Shown here: positions 3,888 through 22,796 of the stretch, piece by piece
Layout: each line of letters starts with the position of its first letter
How positions within the stretch are numbered: position 1 is the stretch's first letter
IMG/VR virus record: IMGVR_UViG_3300000313_000014
Span: 1 to 23,221 of that record
DNA length: 23,221 nt
Strand: one strand, 5' to 3'
Origin: a virus
Made by a program: the position numbers and the translations under genes
Notes under the pieces: model-generated
What the model saw: the letters and a program-made list of their open reading frames with translations, nothing else
Told to the model about the DNA's origin: nothing
The model's database searches: none

Positions 3888-4865
3888 TTATAACACTAAA
3901 TCAATCCATAATGAACCAGTTTCCAAGTAACGCGGCTTAATTCCTATAACTGTAAAACCTTGCTCAATTATGTCATATAAGCTTTCAAAAGAAGCCTCTG
4001 AATAGTCCATTCCCATTGCTTGAAAGATTTTCGCAAAATCCAGCAAAACATTTTTCATAGCTGGATTTATATTCTCCATTTTTTCAGCCAGTTCTTTCCA
4101 AAACAGCACAGATTCTGTATCTTCCATAGACTCTAGAAATCCTATAGCCCGTCCAAAGCTATCAAACAATCTCGATAATACAATATTTGCTTCTTGCCAC
4201 ATTTGAAGCAAATCATGATGTACAAGATAATTTTGATATGATTCTCTTATTGATTGTTGTGTCAAGTAAAAAATATCAACCGGTGAAAATATGGTTTCCC
4301 GCAATGCTTCTTTATCGGTTTTAATTAATTGATATGCTACCTTGTTAGCTATACGCTCGCTATTGACAGATCTAGCTATAAATTCCTTTATCCCTCGCCA
4401 GTCATCCACTAAAGGCTGTTCTTCCCTGCCCCTAATAGAATTCACTGCTAACTTTTCACCAACATGGGTTAATTCATGTACTATTACTGTACAAGGAAAA
4501 CTTTCAGCATCTATAGCTCCAGCAACTATATTTTCAAAAAATATTATACCTGCGAACTCTCTATCACCATTTCTCCAATTAAAAATTTTTCCTGCCAAAA
4601 CATTTCCTTTTAATGGCGCTGTCACTGAAGGTGTCCCATCTAACAAATGGCTAATAAATTTATTATATGACCGAACAACATTATCAGAAACTACAATTAC
4701 CTTCAAACAATTCCCTAACGGATAATAATTTTCTACATATTTTATAGCTTCCTTAAACATTTTATCCAAAAGCTGTTTAACTTCTGCACTATTCCATGCT
4801 GGTTTATTATTGTCAATTACGATGGCATATTCGCCATCAGAAATTGTTTCATATTCTTTTAACAT
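3888..4865 (-). CDS. HExxH metalloprotease, probable moron gene
   Basis: A 325-residue protein from the ATG at 4863-4865, preceded by AGGGGTGAT (close to the full anti-SD complement) with 7 bases between. Residues 127-136 read VIVHELTHVG, a classic zinc-binding HExxH. Acidic residues about 27-36 positions later (GIKEFIARSVNSERIA, 158-173) could supply the third ligand, as in gluzincin-type peptidases. There is no signal peptide or membrane segment. The gene is visibly richer in A and T than the tail genes around it, and has a likely promoter in front and a terminator behind, so it looks like cargo inserted between tape measure and tail-tip genes. The substrate is unknown. It could act in the lysogen, in superinfection exclusion, or be packaged. 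A degenerate non-catalytic fold cannot be excluded. Confidence 0.75.
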   Translation of the reverse strand: MLKEYETISDGEYAIVIDNNKPAWNSAEVKQLLDKMFKEAIKYVENYYPLGNCLKVIVVSDNVVRSYNKFISHLLDGTPSVTAPLKGNVLAGKIFNWRNGDREFAGIIFFENIVAGAIDAESFPCTVIVHELTHVGEKLAVNSIRGREEQPLVDDWRGIKEFIARSVNSERIANKVAYQLIKTDKEALRETIFSPVDIFYLTQQSIRESYQNYLVHHDLLQMWQEANIVLSRLFDSFGRAIGFLESMEDTESVLFWKELAEKMENINPAMKNVLLDFAKIFQAMGMDYSEASFESLYDIIEQGFTVIGIKPRYLETGSLWIDLVL

Positions 4866-4885
4866 TGCACAAATCACCCCTAATT

Positions 4886-16732: not shown

Positions 16733-18280
16733 TCACTTGATTCTAAAATAGCCAGATCGCGGATTCAAATACTCGTTATATGCCACACGGTCAACTGGAA
16801 ATGATGTTTCCACAATCCCATCTTCCCCAACAATTACAATCCATTTCGGTAACCCATAAACATAATAATTTTGATTAAATCCATCTAAATAATATTTATA
16901 TATTTCCACGCGCTTATCACTGACTATGTCAATGATTTTTGCATTATAATCTTCGACAGTCCAATCCGCTGGTATATGACCTAGTTTTTTTCGCTTTTCT
17001 AAATGTATTTTAAGCTTGTCATCTTTCCACGTTGGACCATTTTCTATAATGCTTTTTCTTATTTTCTCTGCAATATCCATTTCTTTAATTTTACCATTTT
17101 TGTCGAGTGTTTGCAATTGAAAATCATCTTTACTCAACCGCGATTTAGGCTTTTCAAAACCATCCCAGCCACGCAAAAGTTCTTGCCAGTCACCGCCAGC
17201 GTCATATTTCTCTGCTCCATCTGCACCAAAAAGCTGCATACGTTTTGCATCGCTTAAACCATCGATATATTCCCGGGCATCATCCGGATGAATTTCATTA
17301 CCTTTCTGCTCCCAAGAAAATACATCTTCCAACATGCACATACAGTGCGGATGCCGTGGAATACTTGGTACCTTGTTTTTAGGATATATTCCCCGACCAT
17401 ACCCAACATTCATATGCGCACACACATCACACTGATCATAAAATGGATGTCTGCTAGAGAGACGCCAACGATATCCCCATATATCCGAATTACCTTGTCT
17501 TTCTGCGATGTAGCCATCAAACCATGCCCTTACAGCTTCTGTACGCGCTATGCGCTCGGCATAATACCGAGTTTTTTCCTGCACGGCTACACGAGCCGCC
17601 CGCGATATGACTTTTTCATTTAGCTCATTACCACTACAGGCTTTTGCAAAATCACTATAGGCTGCTTTTAAATCTTCAGTTTTAAGATTGTCTACACTAC
17701 GCTGTAGTCGCTGAGCTTTTTTTCGTACTTCTGCGACAAGGTCTTTATCTCCCTGCGCAGCTCGAACAGCTAAATCACAAATATCTGCCAGCTTATCCGA
17801 CAAGCCCGCCGATTTAATAATCCCATTACCGCTGTTGTATCCATCATAAAGCTCCATCGCCATTTCTTTCATAGACTGCATTTTTTGCATGGATGATCGA
17901 ATGGTTTGAACCGTCTTATTGCGAACATCCAGCGTATGCAAACGACGTGATAGCGACATATCGTCAGGTGCCCAGCTATCAGACAGCAGCTTTTGCTTAA
18001 TGGCAGTCGTTGCTTTATCTGTCACCTGCTCTGGTAATACACCAAATCCAGCACAAGCAGCCAAATACACAGCCTCGCTGACAGCTTCCTGATAAGCCCC
18101 CTGAAAGCCTGTTTCCCTTAGAGCTTCATCGACTGACTTAGAAACTGGATTCCCTGCATTTATCCGTTGCAGAATATCCGCAATGAGTGTCTCTGCTGCT
18201 GAGTCATACGAAACCTTGTATTTCTTCAAGATTTCACGAACCTTATTTTTAAATGTACTTTGCTTGAATTCTTCAGCCAT
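16733..18280 (-). CDS. MuF/SPP1 gp7-like head protein with C-terminal toxin-like domain
   Basis: A 515-residue protein starting 3 bases after the portal stop, with GAGGAG 6 bases before the ATG. Residues 1-230 are helical. Residues 230-325 carry the MuF head-morphogenesis core: ARTEAVRAWFDGY, WRLSSRHPFYDQCDVC and the zinc-type PRHPHCMCMLEDVF. Such proteins bind the portal, enter the head and can be ejected with DNA. After a linker (FEKPKSRLSKDD) residues 400-515 form a separate domain: KLKIHLEKRKKLGHIPADW, NQNYYVYGLPKWIVIVGEDG and IVETSFPVD. That layout of a helix with His/Lys followed by a beta sheet ending in the ET-(S/A)FP strand resembles BECR-fold RNases found as phage and CdiA-type toxin tips. 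MuF proteins with polymorphic toxin tips are a known temperate-phage family; which toxin this is remains an inference. Confidence 0.82.
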   Translation of the reverse strand: MAEEFKQSTFKNKVREILKKYKVSYDSAAETLIADILQRINAGNPVSKSVDEALRETGFQGAYQEAVSEAVYLAACAGFGVLPEQVTDKATTAIKQKLLSDSWAPDDMSLSRRLHTLDVRNKTVQTIRSSMQKMQSMKEMAMELYDGYNSGNGIIKSAGLSDKLADICDLAVRAAQGDKDLVAEVRKKAQRLQRSVDNLKTEDLKAAYSDFAKACSGNELNEKVISRAARVAVQEKTRYYAERIARTEAVRAWFDGYIAERQGNSDIWGYRWRLSSRHPFYDQCDVCAHMNVGYGRGIYPKNKVPSIPRHPHCMCMLEDVFSWEQKGNEIHPDDAREYIDGLSDAKRMQLFGADGAEKYDAGGDWQELLRGWDGFEKPKSRLSKDDFQLQTLDKNGKIKEMDIAEKIRKSIIENGPTWKDDKLKIHLEKRKKLGHIPADWTVEDYNAKIIDIVSDKRVEIYKYYLDGFNQNYYVYGLPKWIVIVGEDGIVETSFPVDRVAYNEYLNPRSGYFRIK

Positions 18281-18283
18281 AGC

Positions 18284-19672
18284 TTACTCCTCAGATTGCA
18301 CCATGCCACGATCAGGAGGCATAGTCTCAATTTCGTTCATAATCTCAGCATAACGTTTATCATCAACATCAGCGAAATATACTTCTGCAATTTTGCGATT
18401 AACTTCACGTTCGACAACCGTGCCACCAACGACCAAGTCTTTCATCTTTTGAGCCTTATCCAACTCATCCACAATATCTGTGATATTAAAATTACGTGGA
18501 TATTTTACTTTCAGATCCTTGACCTCTGTTTTTGTCCAAGCTTCGAACAGATGGAATATACCGGTCTCTGCCATCTCACAGTTTTCGGCCATATCCGCTA
18601 AAATATTTGTAGTTTCTTCAAAGTCCCACTGCTTAGCCACACCGGACTGCTTTGTCTGTATAGCCAAAACACTGGTAAGCCCCGCCTGGCGAAACATATC
18701 ATCAATGATATCCTTAATCTCCTGTTGCAACACATTTACCGGCTCCATAGGCGGAGCAATAAACTCCGGCATAGCACTAGCAGAAGCATCGACGTTCATC
18801 ATATTATTCGTACCAATATTCAATCCAATTTCATTACCGTTTTCATCTCTTTGGCGTGCTTGTGCTGCCATTTGCGGAGTCATTGGATAGACCAACACAG
18901 GAAAGCACTGATTACGCAGAATTTCACGCTTTTCACTATCTCGGTTATAGATGTCTCGATTAGCTCTGGCTATATGCAGCATGTCCGGTACTGGCAACGG
19001 ATTATCTTCCTGCTCATCTGATGCAGAGAGCGCAACTACTGGCACAATGCCGATACTGTTTTCCCCTTCACTAACAAGCTTATCATCCGTCTTGCAAGAC
19101 CATGTTTCCGGTGTCCATGTCCATTCCTCATAGCTGCTATTTGCTTTTAAGTCATTCTTGCTCATCTTCGCACGAACCTTATATGAGAACATCAAAAAAC
19201 GTCCACTCTTATCGCAGGTGTAATCTACGACTTGATCTGGACGCACAATATACAAATATGGAAATTGACGGTTCTGCATAGCATCTTCTTTGTTTCCAAC
19301 CATCTGCTCTGCAGTATAGTTGTCCTCTACAATAAAAATTCTGTTATATACACGGGCCCATTTTGCCGCACGCTTTATGAATATATTGATTGGTGTTCCT
19401 TTTCCATCAACATCATCCATAAAATCTTCCATCATCTTGTTGCTTTCAAAATCCCTGACAATCGTCTTTTTGAAGATTGGATTTGTCAGAGCATTGACAA
19501 TGACTTTAACAAAATTTGAATACCGTGCCATCCGTTTGCGTTTAAGAAAATCCTCATCGTCTTCGCGTTTATGCCGAAACAGATAACTGCCATCAACAAA
19601 GCCGCCGCTTCCTGTATATGCATCATACAAAAGTTGGTATGAATTATCTGTTATCATTACATTTTCCAGCAT
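18284..19672 (-). CDS. Portal protein
   Basis: A 462-residue protein from the ATG at 19670-19672 (GAGGTGG upstream), directly after the terminase genes and before the MuF gene, which is the conserved portal position. The N-terminus has FLKRKRMARYSNFVKVIVNA and NPIFKK, followed by a helical and beta region (WARVYNRIFIVEDNY, WTWTPETWSCKTDDK). A central REILRNQCFPVLVYPM leads into a long helical stem part with QEIKDIIDDMFRQAGLTSVL. These features fit gp6-type portals of SPP1-like packaging systems in size and order. It forms the ring at the head vertex through which DNA enters and leaves. Confidence 0.85.
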   Translation of the reverse strand: MLENVMITDNSYQLLYDAYTGSGGFVDGSYLFRHKREDDEDFLKRKRMARYSNFVKVIVNALTNPIFKKTIVRDFESNKMMEDFMDDVDGKGTPINIFIKRAAKWARVYNRIFIVEDNYTAEQMVGNKEDAMQNRQFPYLYIVRPDQVVDYTCDKSGRFLMFSYKVRAKMSKNDLKANSSYEEWTWTPETWSCKTDDKLVSEGENSIGIVPVVALSASDEQEDNPLPVPDMLHIARANRDIYNRDSEKREILRNQCFPVLVYPMTPQMAAQARQRDENGNEIGLNIGTNNMMNVDASASAMPEFIAPPMEPVNVLQQEIKDIIDDMFRQAGLTSVLAIQTKQSGVAKQWDFEETTNILADMAENCEMAETGIFHLFEAWTKTEVKDLKVKYPRNFNITDIVDELDKAQKMKDLVVGGTVVEREVNRKIAEVYFADVDDKRYAEIMNEIETMPPDRGMVQSEE

Positions 19673-19693: not shown

Positions 19694-19963
19694 TTAAAAA
19701 AGATGATGCCGCCCAACTGAAGATTTAAAGCCGGTAGTCATATCGTCGTTCAGCATATAGTGAGTTGCATCGATACAGTTATGGACTATCAGACCACCAT
19801 TTATTGCAAAATTATGGTGTTTCTGTACTTCCAGATTGTAAACCGGCTTGATGCCTACACGCCGAAGACTTTTGATTCCGACGAATCCAACGCAGTTTAC
19901 CTGCACATTTTCGGGAACAGCATTCACGTTTTGCATATTTATTTGAAACAAATTCTTTCCCAC
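19694..19963 (-). CDS. C-terminal half-intein fused to last 27 residues of large terminase
   Basis: An 89-residue product from the GTG at 19961-19963, placed 8 bases after AGAGGTG. An ATG at 19934-19936 is an alternative. Residues up to 62 form an intein C-half: VNCVGFVGIKSLRR, then block F VYNLEVQKHHNFAINGG and block G LIVHN with the penultimate His and final Asn. Cys63 is the +1 nucleophile. The remaining 27 residues begin CIDATHYMLNDD, which complete the terminase motif (PDKNDH joined to CIDATHYML). The frame differs from both the endonuclease and the N-terminal half, so joining must occur by protein trans-splicing or not at all. The gene overlaps the endonuclease end by 152 bases. All splicing residues look intact. 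Confidence 0.88.
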   Translation of the reverse strand: MGKNLFQINMQNVNAVPENVQVNCVGFVGIKSLRRVGIKPVYNLEVQKHHNFAINGGLIVHNCIDATHYMLNDDMTTGFKSSVGRHHLF

Positions 19964-20495
19964 AGTGCATACACCTCTTTGTAATATCATCAATACCAGA
20001 TTTTCTTCGCTGGGCAGCGTTGCATTTATTGGAACAAAACCTATTCACCCCATGATATTCCGCCGCAAATTCTTTTCCACAGCACTCACAAACCATCACT
20101 TTTTTCTCACGCAAGACTGCTTTAGTTCGTTTATAATGTTCTTTATGCCACAATTTCCCTGCTTTGGAACCATGCCACTCAGATGCATATTCACGAGCAT
20201 AATCCATACGGGCAACCATAACATCGTGATGTTTTTCATCGTTTTTACGCCCATGCAAAGATTGATGAGCTCTCATCTTCAGCAACTGCAAATTCGATAT
20301 AACATTATTACCTCTATCGCCATTTATATGATGAACCTGATATCCTTTTGGAATGGCTCCATTGAAAAACATCCATACATATCTATGCATACGTTCTCGA
20401 ATTTTATTCGAAGATATGGATGAGCATAAATAATATCCTGTTTTTTCATCAAGCGTAAATTTCTTTCCATCAAAAAACTGATACTTATCTTCCAT
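19812..20495 (-). CDS. Free-standing HNH homing endonuclease with two zinc fingers
   Basis: A 227-residue protein from the ATG at 20493-20495, with GGAGG 7 bases upstream; an earlier in-frame ATG lies before that site. An HNH_3-type core lies at 36-82: RMHRYVWMFFNGAIPKG, then YQVHHINGD and NNVISNLQLL with a later H-x-x-x-H region. His55/His56 and Asn64 are likely active-site residues. A segment EWHGSKAGKLWHKEHYKR (106-123) and two CxxC...CxxxC fingers (136-158 and 175-197) follow, probably for DNA binding. The start overlaps the terminase-IntN stop and the end overlaps the IntC gene. The last 30 residues are read from IntC DNA in another frame and may be dispensable. It should cut intein-free terminase genes to spread the insertion. 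Confidence 0.88.
   Translation of the reverse strand: MEDKYQFFDGKKFTLDEKTGYYLCSSISSNKIRERMHRYVWMFFNGAIPKGYQVHHINGDRGNNVISNLQLLKMRAHQSLHGRKNDEKHHDVMVARMDYAREYASEWHGSKAGKLWHKEHYKRTKAVLREKKVMVCECCGKEFAAEYHGVNRFCSNKCNAAQRRKSGIDDITKRCMHCGKEFVSNKYAKRECCSRKCAGKLRWIRRNQKSSACRHQAGLQSGSTETP
19972..19978 (-). promoter_or_regulatory. Ribosome binding site for the IntC-terminase C gene
   Basis: AGAGGTG on the minus strand lies 8 bases before a GTG in the IntC frame, inside the endonuclease gene. It argues that the C-terminal fragment is a real, separately translated gene and not a frameshift ruin. Confidence 0.55.
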
Positions 20496-21975
20496 CTGAA
20501 TCCCTCCAAATATCAAGGAGCCAATCCTCCTGACACAAACCTTGAATTTCTACCCAACCTCGCTGCGTCATGACAAGATGATCTCCTGTAGCTTGAACTT
20601 TTCTCCCATCAGTCAGTTCCAGCTCATATATTTCAGCAGTCTCTCTTGTCATTCGGCAATCATTGAAACGTGCTACTGTTTGGCATTTATTTCTTCTGTC
20701 ATAACAGTACACATCCCCAGTCTTCCCAACCAGATCTTTTATTGGTTTCGGTCCATCGGTCGTCTCGACTAATGTTTCCCCAACAAGACAATGATCGTTT
20801 TTATCAGGATACTTACTTTTGAAATTACCATAGGCATCCTGTTCAAGCTCATAACCGACAAACTCACGTGCTGCATTTGGACAGCGCACCGGATCAATAA
20901 TAATTTCATCGATATCATCTGACATAAAGGCATAGCCTTCTTCTCGACTTCCGTTGTACTTATCGCAAGGCAAAGCATTTATTAATTCATCCTGCAAATA
21001 ACTAATGGACTTAGGCTCGGAATTATCACAGTAAACCAGCTGATTAAGAATATTTTCCGTTTGAATAAATTCAGCAGCTTTTTTATTACTGATGTTCAGT
21101 CCATATTTTTCATAAAACAGCCATAGCCTGTGGTGTTTTTTATCATAATTCCCAACAAGATAGGTGAATGGATCTCCACCATATCCCCAGTCAAGCCCCC
21201 GCCGCAGATTGTCAAAACCGAGTATCTCTTCTCGTGGGATTTCTCGCAAAGTAACATTGCGAAATACTTCGCCGCCCGTACCAGTGGCTTCTCCAAGATA
21301 AACATGCCGATACTTATCAAAATTGTGCTGTTTAACATATAGTGCTTCTGTTATAAACTGTTCACCCAGCCACTCTGCTGGTACCTTTTCATAACTGCTC
21401 TTATGCACTCGCTTATCTGGCCGTGGCAAAGTTATTTCTGCATTTACCCAAGCATTTTTTGATTTGGGCGGGTTGAAAGAATAGAATACCCAAAATGCAT
21501 CCCCTCCACGGAGGACAGACTGGTTAATCATTTCGATTTCTTCCATGCTGGTAAATTCATCACATTCCTCATACCACACATAAGCAATATATCCATGAGA
21601 TACCTTGACTGATTTCGATTTGCGCGGATCATCCAAACCACGAAAGATGATTTGTTGTCCTGTAGGCTCGTAAATCAGTCGTAGTGGAGATTTCTGCTGC
21701 CGCCACAAATGTTCAACGCCCATTTGATAGATCGTCCATACAATCTGCGAATACACACTGTCCAAAAGGTACGTGCCGTATTTACGAAAACAAATAGCAT
21801 TGCGCTCTGGGTGCTGCATCATGCCAAGCGGAATTTCGCTGCCAATGAATGAAGACTTTGTAGAACCACGACCGCCAGCAAGCCAGTAATGCGTGTGCCC
21901 ATGCCGCTTAACATCACAATGCAACCCATAAAATGATGGAGCTATCAGATTTGTAAGCCGATATGTTTCAATCAT
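20485..21975 (-). CDS. Large terminase N-terminal part (395 aa) fused to N-terminal half-intein (101 aa)
   Basis: A 496-residue protein whose ATG overlaps the small terminase stop (ATGA). Residues 1-395 are terminase: Walker A-type GGRGSTKSS (34-42), Walker B YVWYEE (132-137), coupling motif FYSFNPP (164-170), and nuclease residues Asp262 (RGLDWGYGGDP) and Asp317 (LVYCDNSEP). The sequence reaches KYPDKNDH and then switches at Cys396 to an intein: block A CLVGETLVETTDGPKPIKDL and block B GRKVQATGDHLVMT, with the TxxH pair. It stops at residue 496 with no C-terminal block. The metal-binding HxxD that should complete the nuclease (His395, then Asp two residues after Cys) is split by the insertion. 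Trans-splicing with the downstream fragment would give 422 residues, a normal length (SPP1 gp2 is about this size). Confidence 0.93.
   Translation of the reverse strand: MIETYRLTNLIAPSFYGLHCDVKRHGHTHYWLAGGRGSTKSSFIGSEIPLGMMQHPERNAICFRKYGTYLLDSVYSQIVWTIYQMGVEHLWRQQKSPLRLIYEPTGQQIIFRGLDDPRKSKSVKVSHGYIAYVWYEECDEFTSMEEIEMINQSVLRGGDAFWVFYSFNPPKSKNAWVNAEITLPRPDKRVHKSSYEKVPAEWLGEQFITEALYVKQHNFDKYRHVYLGEATGTGGEVFRNVTLREIPREEILGFDNLRRGLDWGYGGDPFTYLVGNYDKKHHRLWLFYEKYGLNISNKKAAEFIQTENILNQLVYCDNSEPKSISYLQDELINALPCDKYNGSREEGYAFMSDDIDEIIIDPVRCPNAAREFVGYELEQDAYGNFKSKYPDKNDHCLVGETLVETTDGPKPIKDLVGKTGDVYCYDRRNKCQTVARFNDCRMTRETAEIYELELTDGRKVQATGDHLVMTQRGWVEIQGLCQEDWLLDIWRDSDGR
20503..20507 (-). promoter_or_regulatory. 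Ribosome binding site deciding the HNH endonuclease start
   Basis: GGAGG on the minus strand, 7 bases before the ATG at 20493-20495, lies within the last codons of the IntN fusion. It shows the endonuclease has its own translation start. Confidence 0.8.
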
Positions 21976-22796
21976 TCTTGTTTACCTTCCTCAATATCAT
22001 CAACAATCTGCACGGGGGCTGCTGCCTTACCACTTGTATTTGCCGGATTCAACAATATCCGATACTTACTTTCAATCGTCCGAGTTTTTGCTGTCTGCAC
22101 ACGCGTTAGCGCTTCTTCCACGCGAAGAATCTTATCGATAAGAAGTTTTGTCGTTTCTGTTTGTTCGACCAGCACTTTTTTTGTTTCCTTAATTTTAGCC
22201 GTTCGGACAGTTCCCGACTTTTCATCATAAATCTCTGTCATAACTGGCACTGATTGCATTTCATAGACATCTTTTGTCTCAACAAGCGCCTTTTGCTCTT
22301 TAAGATCGTTCAAGTGCTTTAACATGCGACGTTCCCGAAGCGTCAGCAATCGAATATCTTCATCAAGCTGTGCAATCGGATCGGTATTAATTGCCCCGAT
22401 AAGGGCCTGCTCCGTTTCATCCATCATGTCTAACCAAATGGTCTGATATTCACCAGTAAACACCGCGTTCTTGTTTTTTAATGGTGCACCACCGGAATTT
22501 CCCAAAGCATTTTTATTACCAATTGGCGCTCCGCTGCCTTTTGCGTTTTGGTTTCCCTTTGGAGCACCGGCTTTTTTAATGGTAACGTTACTATTCATTT
22601 TATTAGTAACGTTACTTTTGCCAATGGTAACGTTACCTTTCAATTTTGCATCCCAATTATCTAAGTTTTTCCACTTACGGATCTGTGTTGCTGAGGTAGC
22701 TACTACATCCGCAATATCTTTCAGCAGCATCTTACCGCCGGAATCTTTCCAAAGCTTAAATGCCATATCCCTATTGGGGCTTCTTGCTCTTGCCAC
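21972..22796 (-). CDS. Terminase small subunit, PBSX-type
   Basis: A 274-residue protein. The start is a GTG at 22794-22796, about 10 bases after GGTGGTGA, giving MARARSPNRDMAFKLW. Residues 8-50 are the helix-turn-helix of PBSX-type small terminases (PNRDMAFKLWKDSGGKMLLK, then IADVVATSATQIRKWKNLDNWD). The linker holds three NVT units (55-57, 62-64, 70-72) and three GAPxGNxNA-type units (78-111). A helical C-terminal half with RLLTLRERRMLKHLNDL and a lysine-rich stretch should form the oligomer and bind the large subunit. It recognises the packaging start and hands DNA to the large terminase, whose ATG overlaps its stop by 4 bases. Confidence 0.9.
   Translation of the reverse strand: MARARSPNRDMAFKLWKDSGGKMLLKDIADVVATSATQIRKWKNLDNWDAKLKGNVTIGKSNVTNKMNSNVTIKKAGAPKGNQNAKGSGAPIGNKNALGNSGGAPLKNKNAVFTGEYQTIWLDMMDETEQALIGAINTDPIAQLDEDIRLLTLRERRMLKHLNDLKEQKALVETKDVYEMQSVPVMTEIYDEKSGTVRTAKIKETKKVLVEQTETTKLLIDKILRVEEALTRVQTAKTRTIESKYRILLNPANTSGKAAAPVQIVDDIEEGKQE
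22582..22636. repeat. Three copies of palindrome GTAACGTTAC in the small terminase gene (candidate pac site)
   Basis: Perfect 10-bp palindromes at 22582-22591, 22606-22615 and 22627-22636, with centres 24 and 21 bp apart, near two helical turns each. They encode the NVT units of the protein. Packaging sites often lie in small terminase genes. Confidence 0.8.

Follow-up and report, generated by a model that had tools for sequence, protein, structure and literature searches.

A split intein and an overlapping HNH endonuclease gene in the large terminase of a virus, and related contiguous, split and mini-inteins in phages

Dassa et al. are said to have described, in 2009, 'fractured genes', in which an essential gene is broken, each part carries one half of a split intein and a free-standing endonuclease gene is located between the halves. 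The present analysis concerns a locus of this kind in the gene for the large terminase subunit (TerL) of a virus, record IMGVR_UViG_3300000313_000014, which was analysed over its whole length of 23,221 nt (the window). The split terminase locus is located on the minus strand at positions 19694 to 21975. As in fractured genes, an essential gene is divided in two, both parts are equipped with a split-intein half and an endonuclease gene lies between them. The endonuclease of the first fractured genes is reportedly a Vsr-like protein with an EDxHD motif, which is perhaps not obligatory, whereas the window encodes an I-HmuI-like HNH protein with zinc ribbons, and EDxHD was not found. The locus differs further in its host gene, in the overlap of the HNH gene with both intein halves out of frame, and in having contiguous, mini- and split relatives.

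Natural split inteins with demonstrated trans-splicing are also known from phage large terminases, namely AceL-TerL and GOS-TerL, which are characterized by an atypical early split and an N-terminal intein half (IntN) of 25–37 aa (PMC11766414). In contrast, IntN in the window comprises about 100 aa and the split is at the canonical site. An HNH gene located out of frame inside a phage open reading frame (ORF) that stays open, without an intein, is reported for the ShiLan methylase (PMC11855218). For overlapping frames, the same paper cites a 2025 preprint by Gosselin et al. (actinobacteriophage inteins, 'non-canonical architecture') and the 'Non-canonical inteins' of Gorbalenya 1998, which may already report out-of-frame intein endonucleases. 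The locus in the window resembles the ShiLan methylase in that an HNH gene is overprinted in a host ORF, but here the overprinted frame is that of the intein linker, the disruption of which can give a split intein. Split inteins in fractured genes, natural split TerL inteins and out-of-frame HNH genes in phage ORFs are known already; what appears to be new is a clade of canonical split TerL inteins with an HNH gene, closely linked to contiguous inteins with an overprinted HNH gene and to mini-inteins formed by re-fusion.

Between the genes for the terminase small subunit (21972 to 22796, minus strand; Pfam Phage_terminase, E 3e-21) and the portal protein (18284 to 19672, minus strand; phrog_145, E 5e-59), three ORFs are encoded in three different frames of the minus strand. 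The first (21975 to 20485, 496 aa; Pfam Terminase_3, E 1e-34) comprises the TerL N-extein (residues 1 to 395, ending with His395; 20791 to 21975), which was assigned by Pfam Terminase_3 and Terminase_3C and by alignment to PDB 2wbn, followed by IntN (20485 to 20790), 101 aa from Cys1 to the TAA stop (CLVGETLV...ATGDHLV...SDGR). The N-extein contains the ATPase and most of the RNase H-like nuclease, the two domains looked for in a TerL of the Terminase_3/PBSX type. The second ORF (19812 to 20495) encodes a free-standing HNH endonuclease of 227 aa, matching Pfam HNH_3 (E 7e-17) and phrog_15471. The third comprises the C-terminal intein half (IntC; 19778 to 19963, from a candidate GTG start to the Asn of ...GGLIVHN) and the TerL C-extein CIDATHYMLNDDM...HHLF (19694 to 19777 including the stop), which has 27 aa (residues 396 to 422), begins with Cys+1 and was delimited by comparison with the empty site of a relative, L001 (L numbers denote loci). 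For this IntC-TerLC fragment, a match to phrog_28563 was obtained (E 3e-19), a family listed with 'unknown function'. Both intein halves scored above the cut-off of their NCBIfam models, IntN with 34.7 bits for TIGR01445 (intein_Nterm, cut-off 24.5) and IntC with 29.2 bits for TIGR01443 (intein_Cterm, cut-off 15.6). The general Pfam intein model stayed under its cut-off on each of them, as expected, because each sequence is only half an intein. From Cys1 to Asn, the module measures 1013 nt; as this number is not divisible by three, the halves are out of frame with each other.

The initial annotation had proposed a TerL fractured by a split intein with a separate HNH gene, and this is supported by the intein, HNH and terminase family matches and by the recurrence of the arrangement described below. 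Coordinates and frames of the three ORFs were given correctly, and the class-1 intein residues it had listed are complete (Cys1, TxxH of block B as TGDH, penultimate His, terminal Asn, Cys+1). A ribosome binding site of its own, claimed for each gene, is firm for HNH (GGAGGG at 20502 to 20507, upstream of ATG 20495) and weaker for IntC. The HNH gene is a separate gene as stated, but it is not merely nested between the halves, since its overlap with the IntN stop amounts to 11 nt and that with the IntC gene to about 150 nt.

The terminase nuclease domain of PDB 2wbn can be aligned up to His395. The insertion lies directly after this residue and before Asp398, inside the nuclease HxxD motif, the residues of which we take, from SPP1 gp2, to be metal-site residues. 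As the motif is split and the Asp is carried by the C-extein, neither chain alone has the whole active site; the unspliced N fragment corresponds to TerL without its last 27 residues. The relative L001, which is 82% identical, encodes an intact intein-free TerL of 422 aa, identical to the spliced length of 395 plus 27 residues. Compared to L001, dN/dS is about 0.04 for each of the N- and C-exteins (dS saturated), which, judged by this ratio, are under strong purifying selection.

The HNH protein consists of an HNH core and two C-terminal Cys4 zinc ribbons. Its AF2 model (pLDDT 91.8) has the homing endonuclease I-HmuI (1u3e) as best fold match in the PDB (E 2.7e-3, probability 1.00, modest TM of 0.28–0.35), and both the HNH core and the I-HmuI-like fold of this group of homing endonucleases were thus found. 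A strong Shine-Dalgarno sequence precedes the HNH gene in 31 of the 39 split loci described below, compared to about 6% by chance (best of few candidate starts). Free-standing relatives of HNH adjoin an intact, intein-free terL in L021, L026, L018 and L033, in opposite orientation in L018. In L084 (1218 to 3715), a free HNH gene is located 3' of an intact TerL gene. After it, the TerL C-terminus is encoded once more as a relic-like copy (CDAMRYACMWAESSSKGVYV), which looks as if the insertion had duplicated the 3' end.

The same arrangement is found in named phages. Lactobacillus phage CL2 encodes TerL-IntN, the HNH gene and an unannotated IntC-TerLC. In its near-twins CL1 and iLp1308, terL is intact and lacks the 1015 bp that separate the His codon from the +1 codon in CL2, a length that is again not divisible by three. 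CL2 and iLp1308 differ in only 2 of 1280 aligned bases, both located in the +1 codon (GGA, Gly, in iLp1308; TGC, Cys, in CL2). With the module precisely present or absent in near-identical exteins, CL2 compared to CL1 and iLp1308 is the best natural experiment. In Brochothrix phage BL3, gp2 is TerL-IntN and gp3 is IntC-TerLC, while only the zinc-ribbon end of HNH remains. A near-DNA search of the window against known phages gave no match.

Further loci were collected by viral-contig scans with an HNH alignment and an IntN alignment, and with our own profiles. IntN, IntC and HNH were found together in 113 non-redundant loci, 39 of them split and 74 contiguous. Besides the window, 38 split loci with HNH were found, and for two of these, CL2 and BL3, the phage genome is complete. 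Nine of ten sampled exteins match Pfam terminase families; L058 matches nothing. All 39 split loci retain Cys1, TxxH, the terminal Asn and Cys, Ser or Thr at +1. The 74 contiguous TerL inteins carry the same HNH family. What the initial annotation had missed is that the locus, as judged from these comparisons, belongs to a larger family and represents one of its states; HNH in this family is usually located out of frame inside a contiguous intein. This applies to 72 of the 74 contiguous loci (66 in one phase, 6 in the other), among them those of phages TJE1, Highwayman and MD07, where the annotation shows one TerL and omits the HNH gene. Loci of this kind with a complete HNH gene and a stop-free intein frame are L019, L022, L023, L027 and about 68 more. 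The sole loci with HNH in frame with the intein, L167 and L170/L171, fall inside the split clade of the intein tree. A different, apparently second intein, unannotated, was seen in the T4-like TerL of Streptococcus phage vB_SagM-GXN1 (L029), where IntN and an apparent Vsr/EDxHD-like domain share one ORF and IntC is located in another frame. Bacillus phage 049ML003, considered as intein-bearing from BLAST, was rejected, as its TerL is intact.

The intein frame across HNH is free of stops in 72 of 111 out-of-frame loci, compared to 8.6 ± 2.0 expected from shuffling of synonymous HNH codons, a count that is independent of how the loci were classed. In the split loci, stop numbers are neutral (315 observed, 336 expected; window 5 and 4.6, respectively). 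The excess of stop-free frames in contiguous loci and the neutral stop numbers in split ones therefore separate two clean states, in which the frame is either kept open or given up.

One well-supported set of 49 rows in the intein tree contains 39 of the 41 split rows, while L032 and L049 form a second, separate split group. Nested among the split inteins are mini-inteins (L157 with L162, L119 with L142), whose linkers still contain parts of the HNH 3' end; L157 and the split L162 are 96% identical around a difference of 652 bp. Since the mini-inteins carry HNH relics, split halves can, by this comparison, re-fuse, and re-fusion into a mini-intein is better supported than the direction from contiguous to split, which is likely. 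In L126 and L131, a split block of approximately 1060 nt is 93–100% identical within flanks of about 40–85% identity, and dS is 0.03–0.12 in intein and HNH compared to 2.5 in the extein. From these values, the whole split block is seen to have moved as one unit between diverged terminases.

Taken as a whole, the locus is very probably a mobile split-intein homing element, trans-spliced and spread by HNH-driven homing, which would have inserted at the conserved TerL nuclease motif after His395. Translation of the transcript would give three proteins, namely TerL1-395-IntN, the HNH endonuclease and IntC-TerL396-422. Once IntN has associated with IntC, trans-splicing along the class-1 pathway (Cys1, block-B His, penultimate His, terminal Asn, Cys+1) would result in an intact TerL of 422 aa with the junction peptide ...DKNDHCIDATHY... 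and a restored nuclease active site. The HNH endonuclease would cut intein-free terL alleles in co-infected cells, whereupon the whole IntN-HNH-IntC block would be copied in. As to the origin of the split, HNH of this family occupies a frame unlike that of the intein, and once the intein frame is no longer kept open, only the two halves would survive; most likely, the split arose because the HNH frame differs from the intein frame.

The alternative that an ordinary contiguous intein, with its endonuclease in frame, was disrupted by indels from assembly or sequencing has to be considered for a single metagenomic record, as indels are common errors. However, the HNH gene contains 26 stops when read in the frame of IntN and 5 when read in that of IntC, so that no pair of indels gives one intein frame, almost all relatives have HNH in a frame other than that of the intein, and the arrangement recurs in the independent records of CL2, BL3 and 36 other non-redundant loci. 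The two-indel scenario named in the initial annotation is thereby excluded from the sequence, and an indel origin has next to no probability; with 38 further split loci excluding chance and sequencing error, the split arrangement is, on this comparative evidence, real. A decaying element with a terminase pseudogene that is no longer spliced is very unlikely. It might be considered because the record is a 23-kb fragment, but the catalytic residues are intact on both halves, the exteins appear strongly constrained compared to L001, the genes for the small terminase subunit, portal, head and tail are open, and the split state is conserved across the clade. Two pieces of TerL acting non-covalently without splicing would resemble the nucleotide reductase split by a homing endonuclease gene (HEG), which is not known to involve an intein. 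That precedent, a genes-in-pieces ribonucleotide reductase of a phage, is cited in PMC10448857. Against it stand the retention of all splicing residues and a Cys+1 that replaces Gly or Thr at the junction, and this explanation is given slightly less credence than the pseudogene.

Removal of the interruption as RNA, with the intein motifs as relics, is highly improbable. It draws on Exiguobacterium phage vB_EauM-23 (L017, 2288 to 3261), where a related HNH is located at the same TerL site without intein halves, for which reason this locus was rejected as another split intein. A weak match to the group I core (RF00028, 11.9 bits, E 4.8) and plausible exon junctions point to a group I intron with an endonuclease of this family. 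However, Rfam matched neither the window locus nor CL2 or BL3, a group I intron search in 12 HNH-only loci gave none at the gathering score, and conservation of the intein residues extends to every split locus. IntC might also be produced by +1 frameshifting out of the HNH gene, resulting in an HNH-IntC-TerLC fusion that still splices. The overlap of about 150 nt and the non-ideal IntC start in the window would fit this, but IntC starts in L040, L051 and L038/L041 are located at or after the matched HNH end, with Shine-Dalgarno matches of 5–7 bases, and BL3 keeps IntC despite the loss of most of HNH. Frameshifting is thus unlikely, if somewhat less so than the other alternatives. From the conserved residues and exteins, we strongly infer protein trans-splicing, by far the best account of how intact TerL is made.

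Several points weigh against the reading as a trans-spliced homing element. The best IntC start, GTG 19963 with the candidate Shine-Dalgarno sequence GAGGTG about 10 nt upstream (19972 to 19977), is moderate evidence for translation of IntC. The HNH active site is conserved and DNA cutting is presumed, and homing is supported by footprints of mobility, not by crosses. That the complete genomes of CL2 and BL3 contain one Terminase_3 (PF04466) match each, the fractured gene, speaks for the reading, but this check might miss a very divergent second TerL. The polarity from contiguous to split was drawn from an unrooted intein tree with few columns. Some known split inteins assemble through opposite charge of their halves; such charges are typical of natural split inteins, although not obligatory, and their presence in the window (IntN −5, IntC +4) speaks for the reading. 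Compared to contiguous relatives, IntN of split loci is more acidic and IntC less acidic, with a p value of 6e-6 that ignores the shared ancestry of the loci.

Two other genes on the minus strand of the window may be mentioned. A gene adjoining the tape measure gene (3888 to 4877) encodes a zinc-protease-like HELTH motif and is weakly similar to phrog_11743 (unknown function). The head morphogenesis protein (16733 to 18280) has a C-terminal extension of approximately 170–190 aa outside all matched families, possibly an extra domain.

Natural split inteins are major tools of protein engineering, and their origin is unsettled. In the family described here, contiguous, split, endonuclease-decayed and re-fused states are found side by side, together with CL2 and iLp1308 as an almost isogenic filled and empty pair, and origin, homing and trans-splicing are therefore directly testable. 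Dozens of new candidate split inteins are added, and the phrog_28563 family of 'unknown function' is explained as IntC-TerL fragments. On balance, it is probable that the overprinting HNH gene acts as a switch between intein states: an HNH overlap kept stop-free would maintain a contiguous intein, its relaxation would give a mobile, stably transmitted split intein, and loss of HNH would lead to a re-fused mini-intein, which would amount to a general, reversible way in which natural split inteins arise and are lost.
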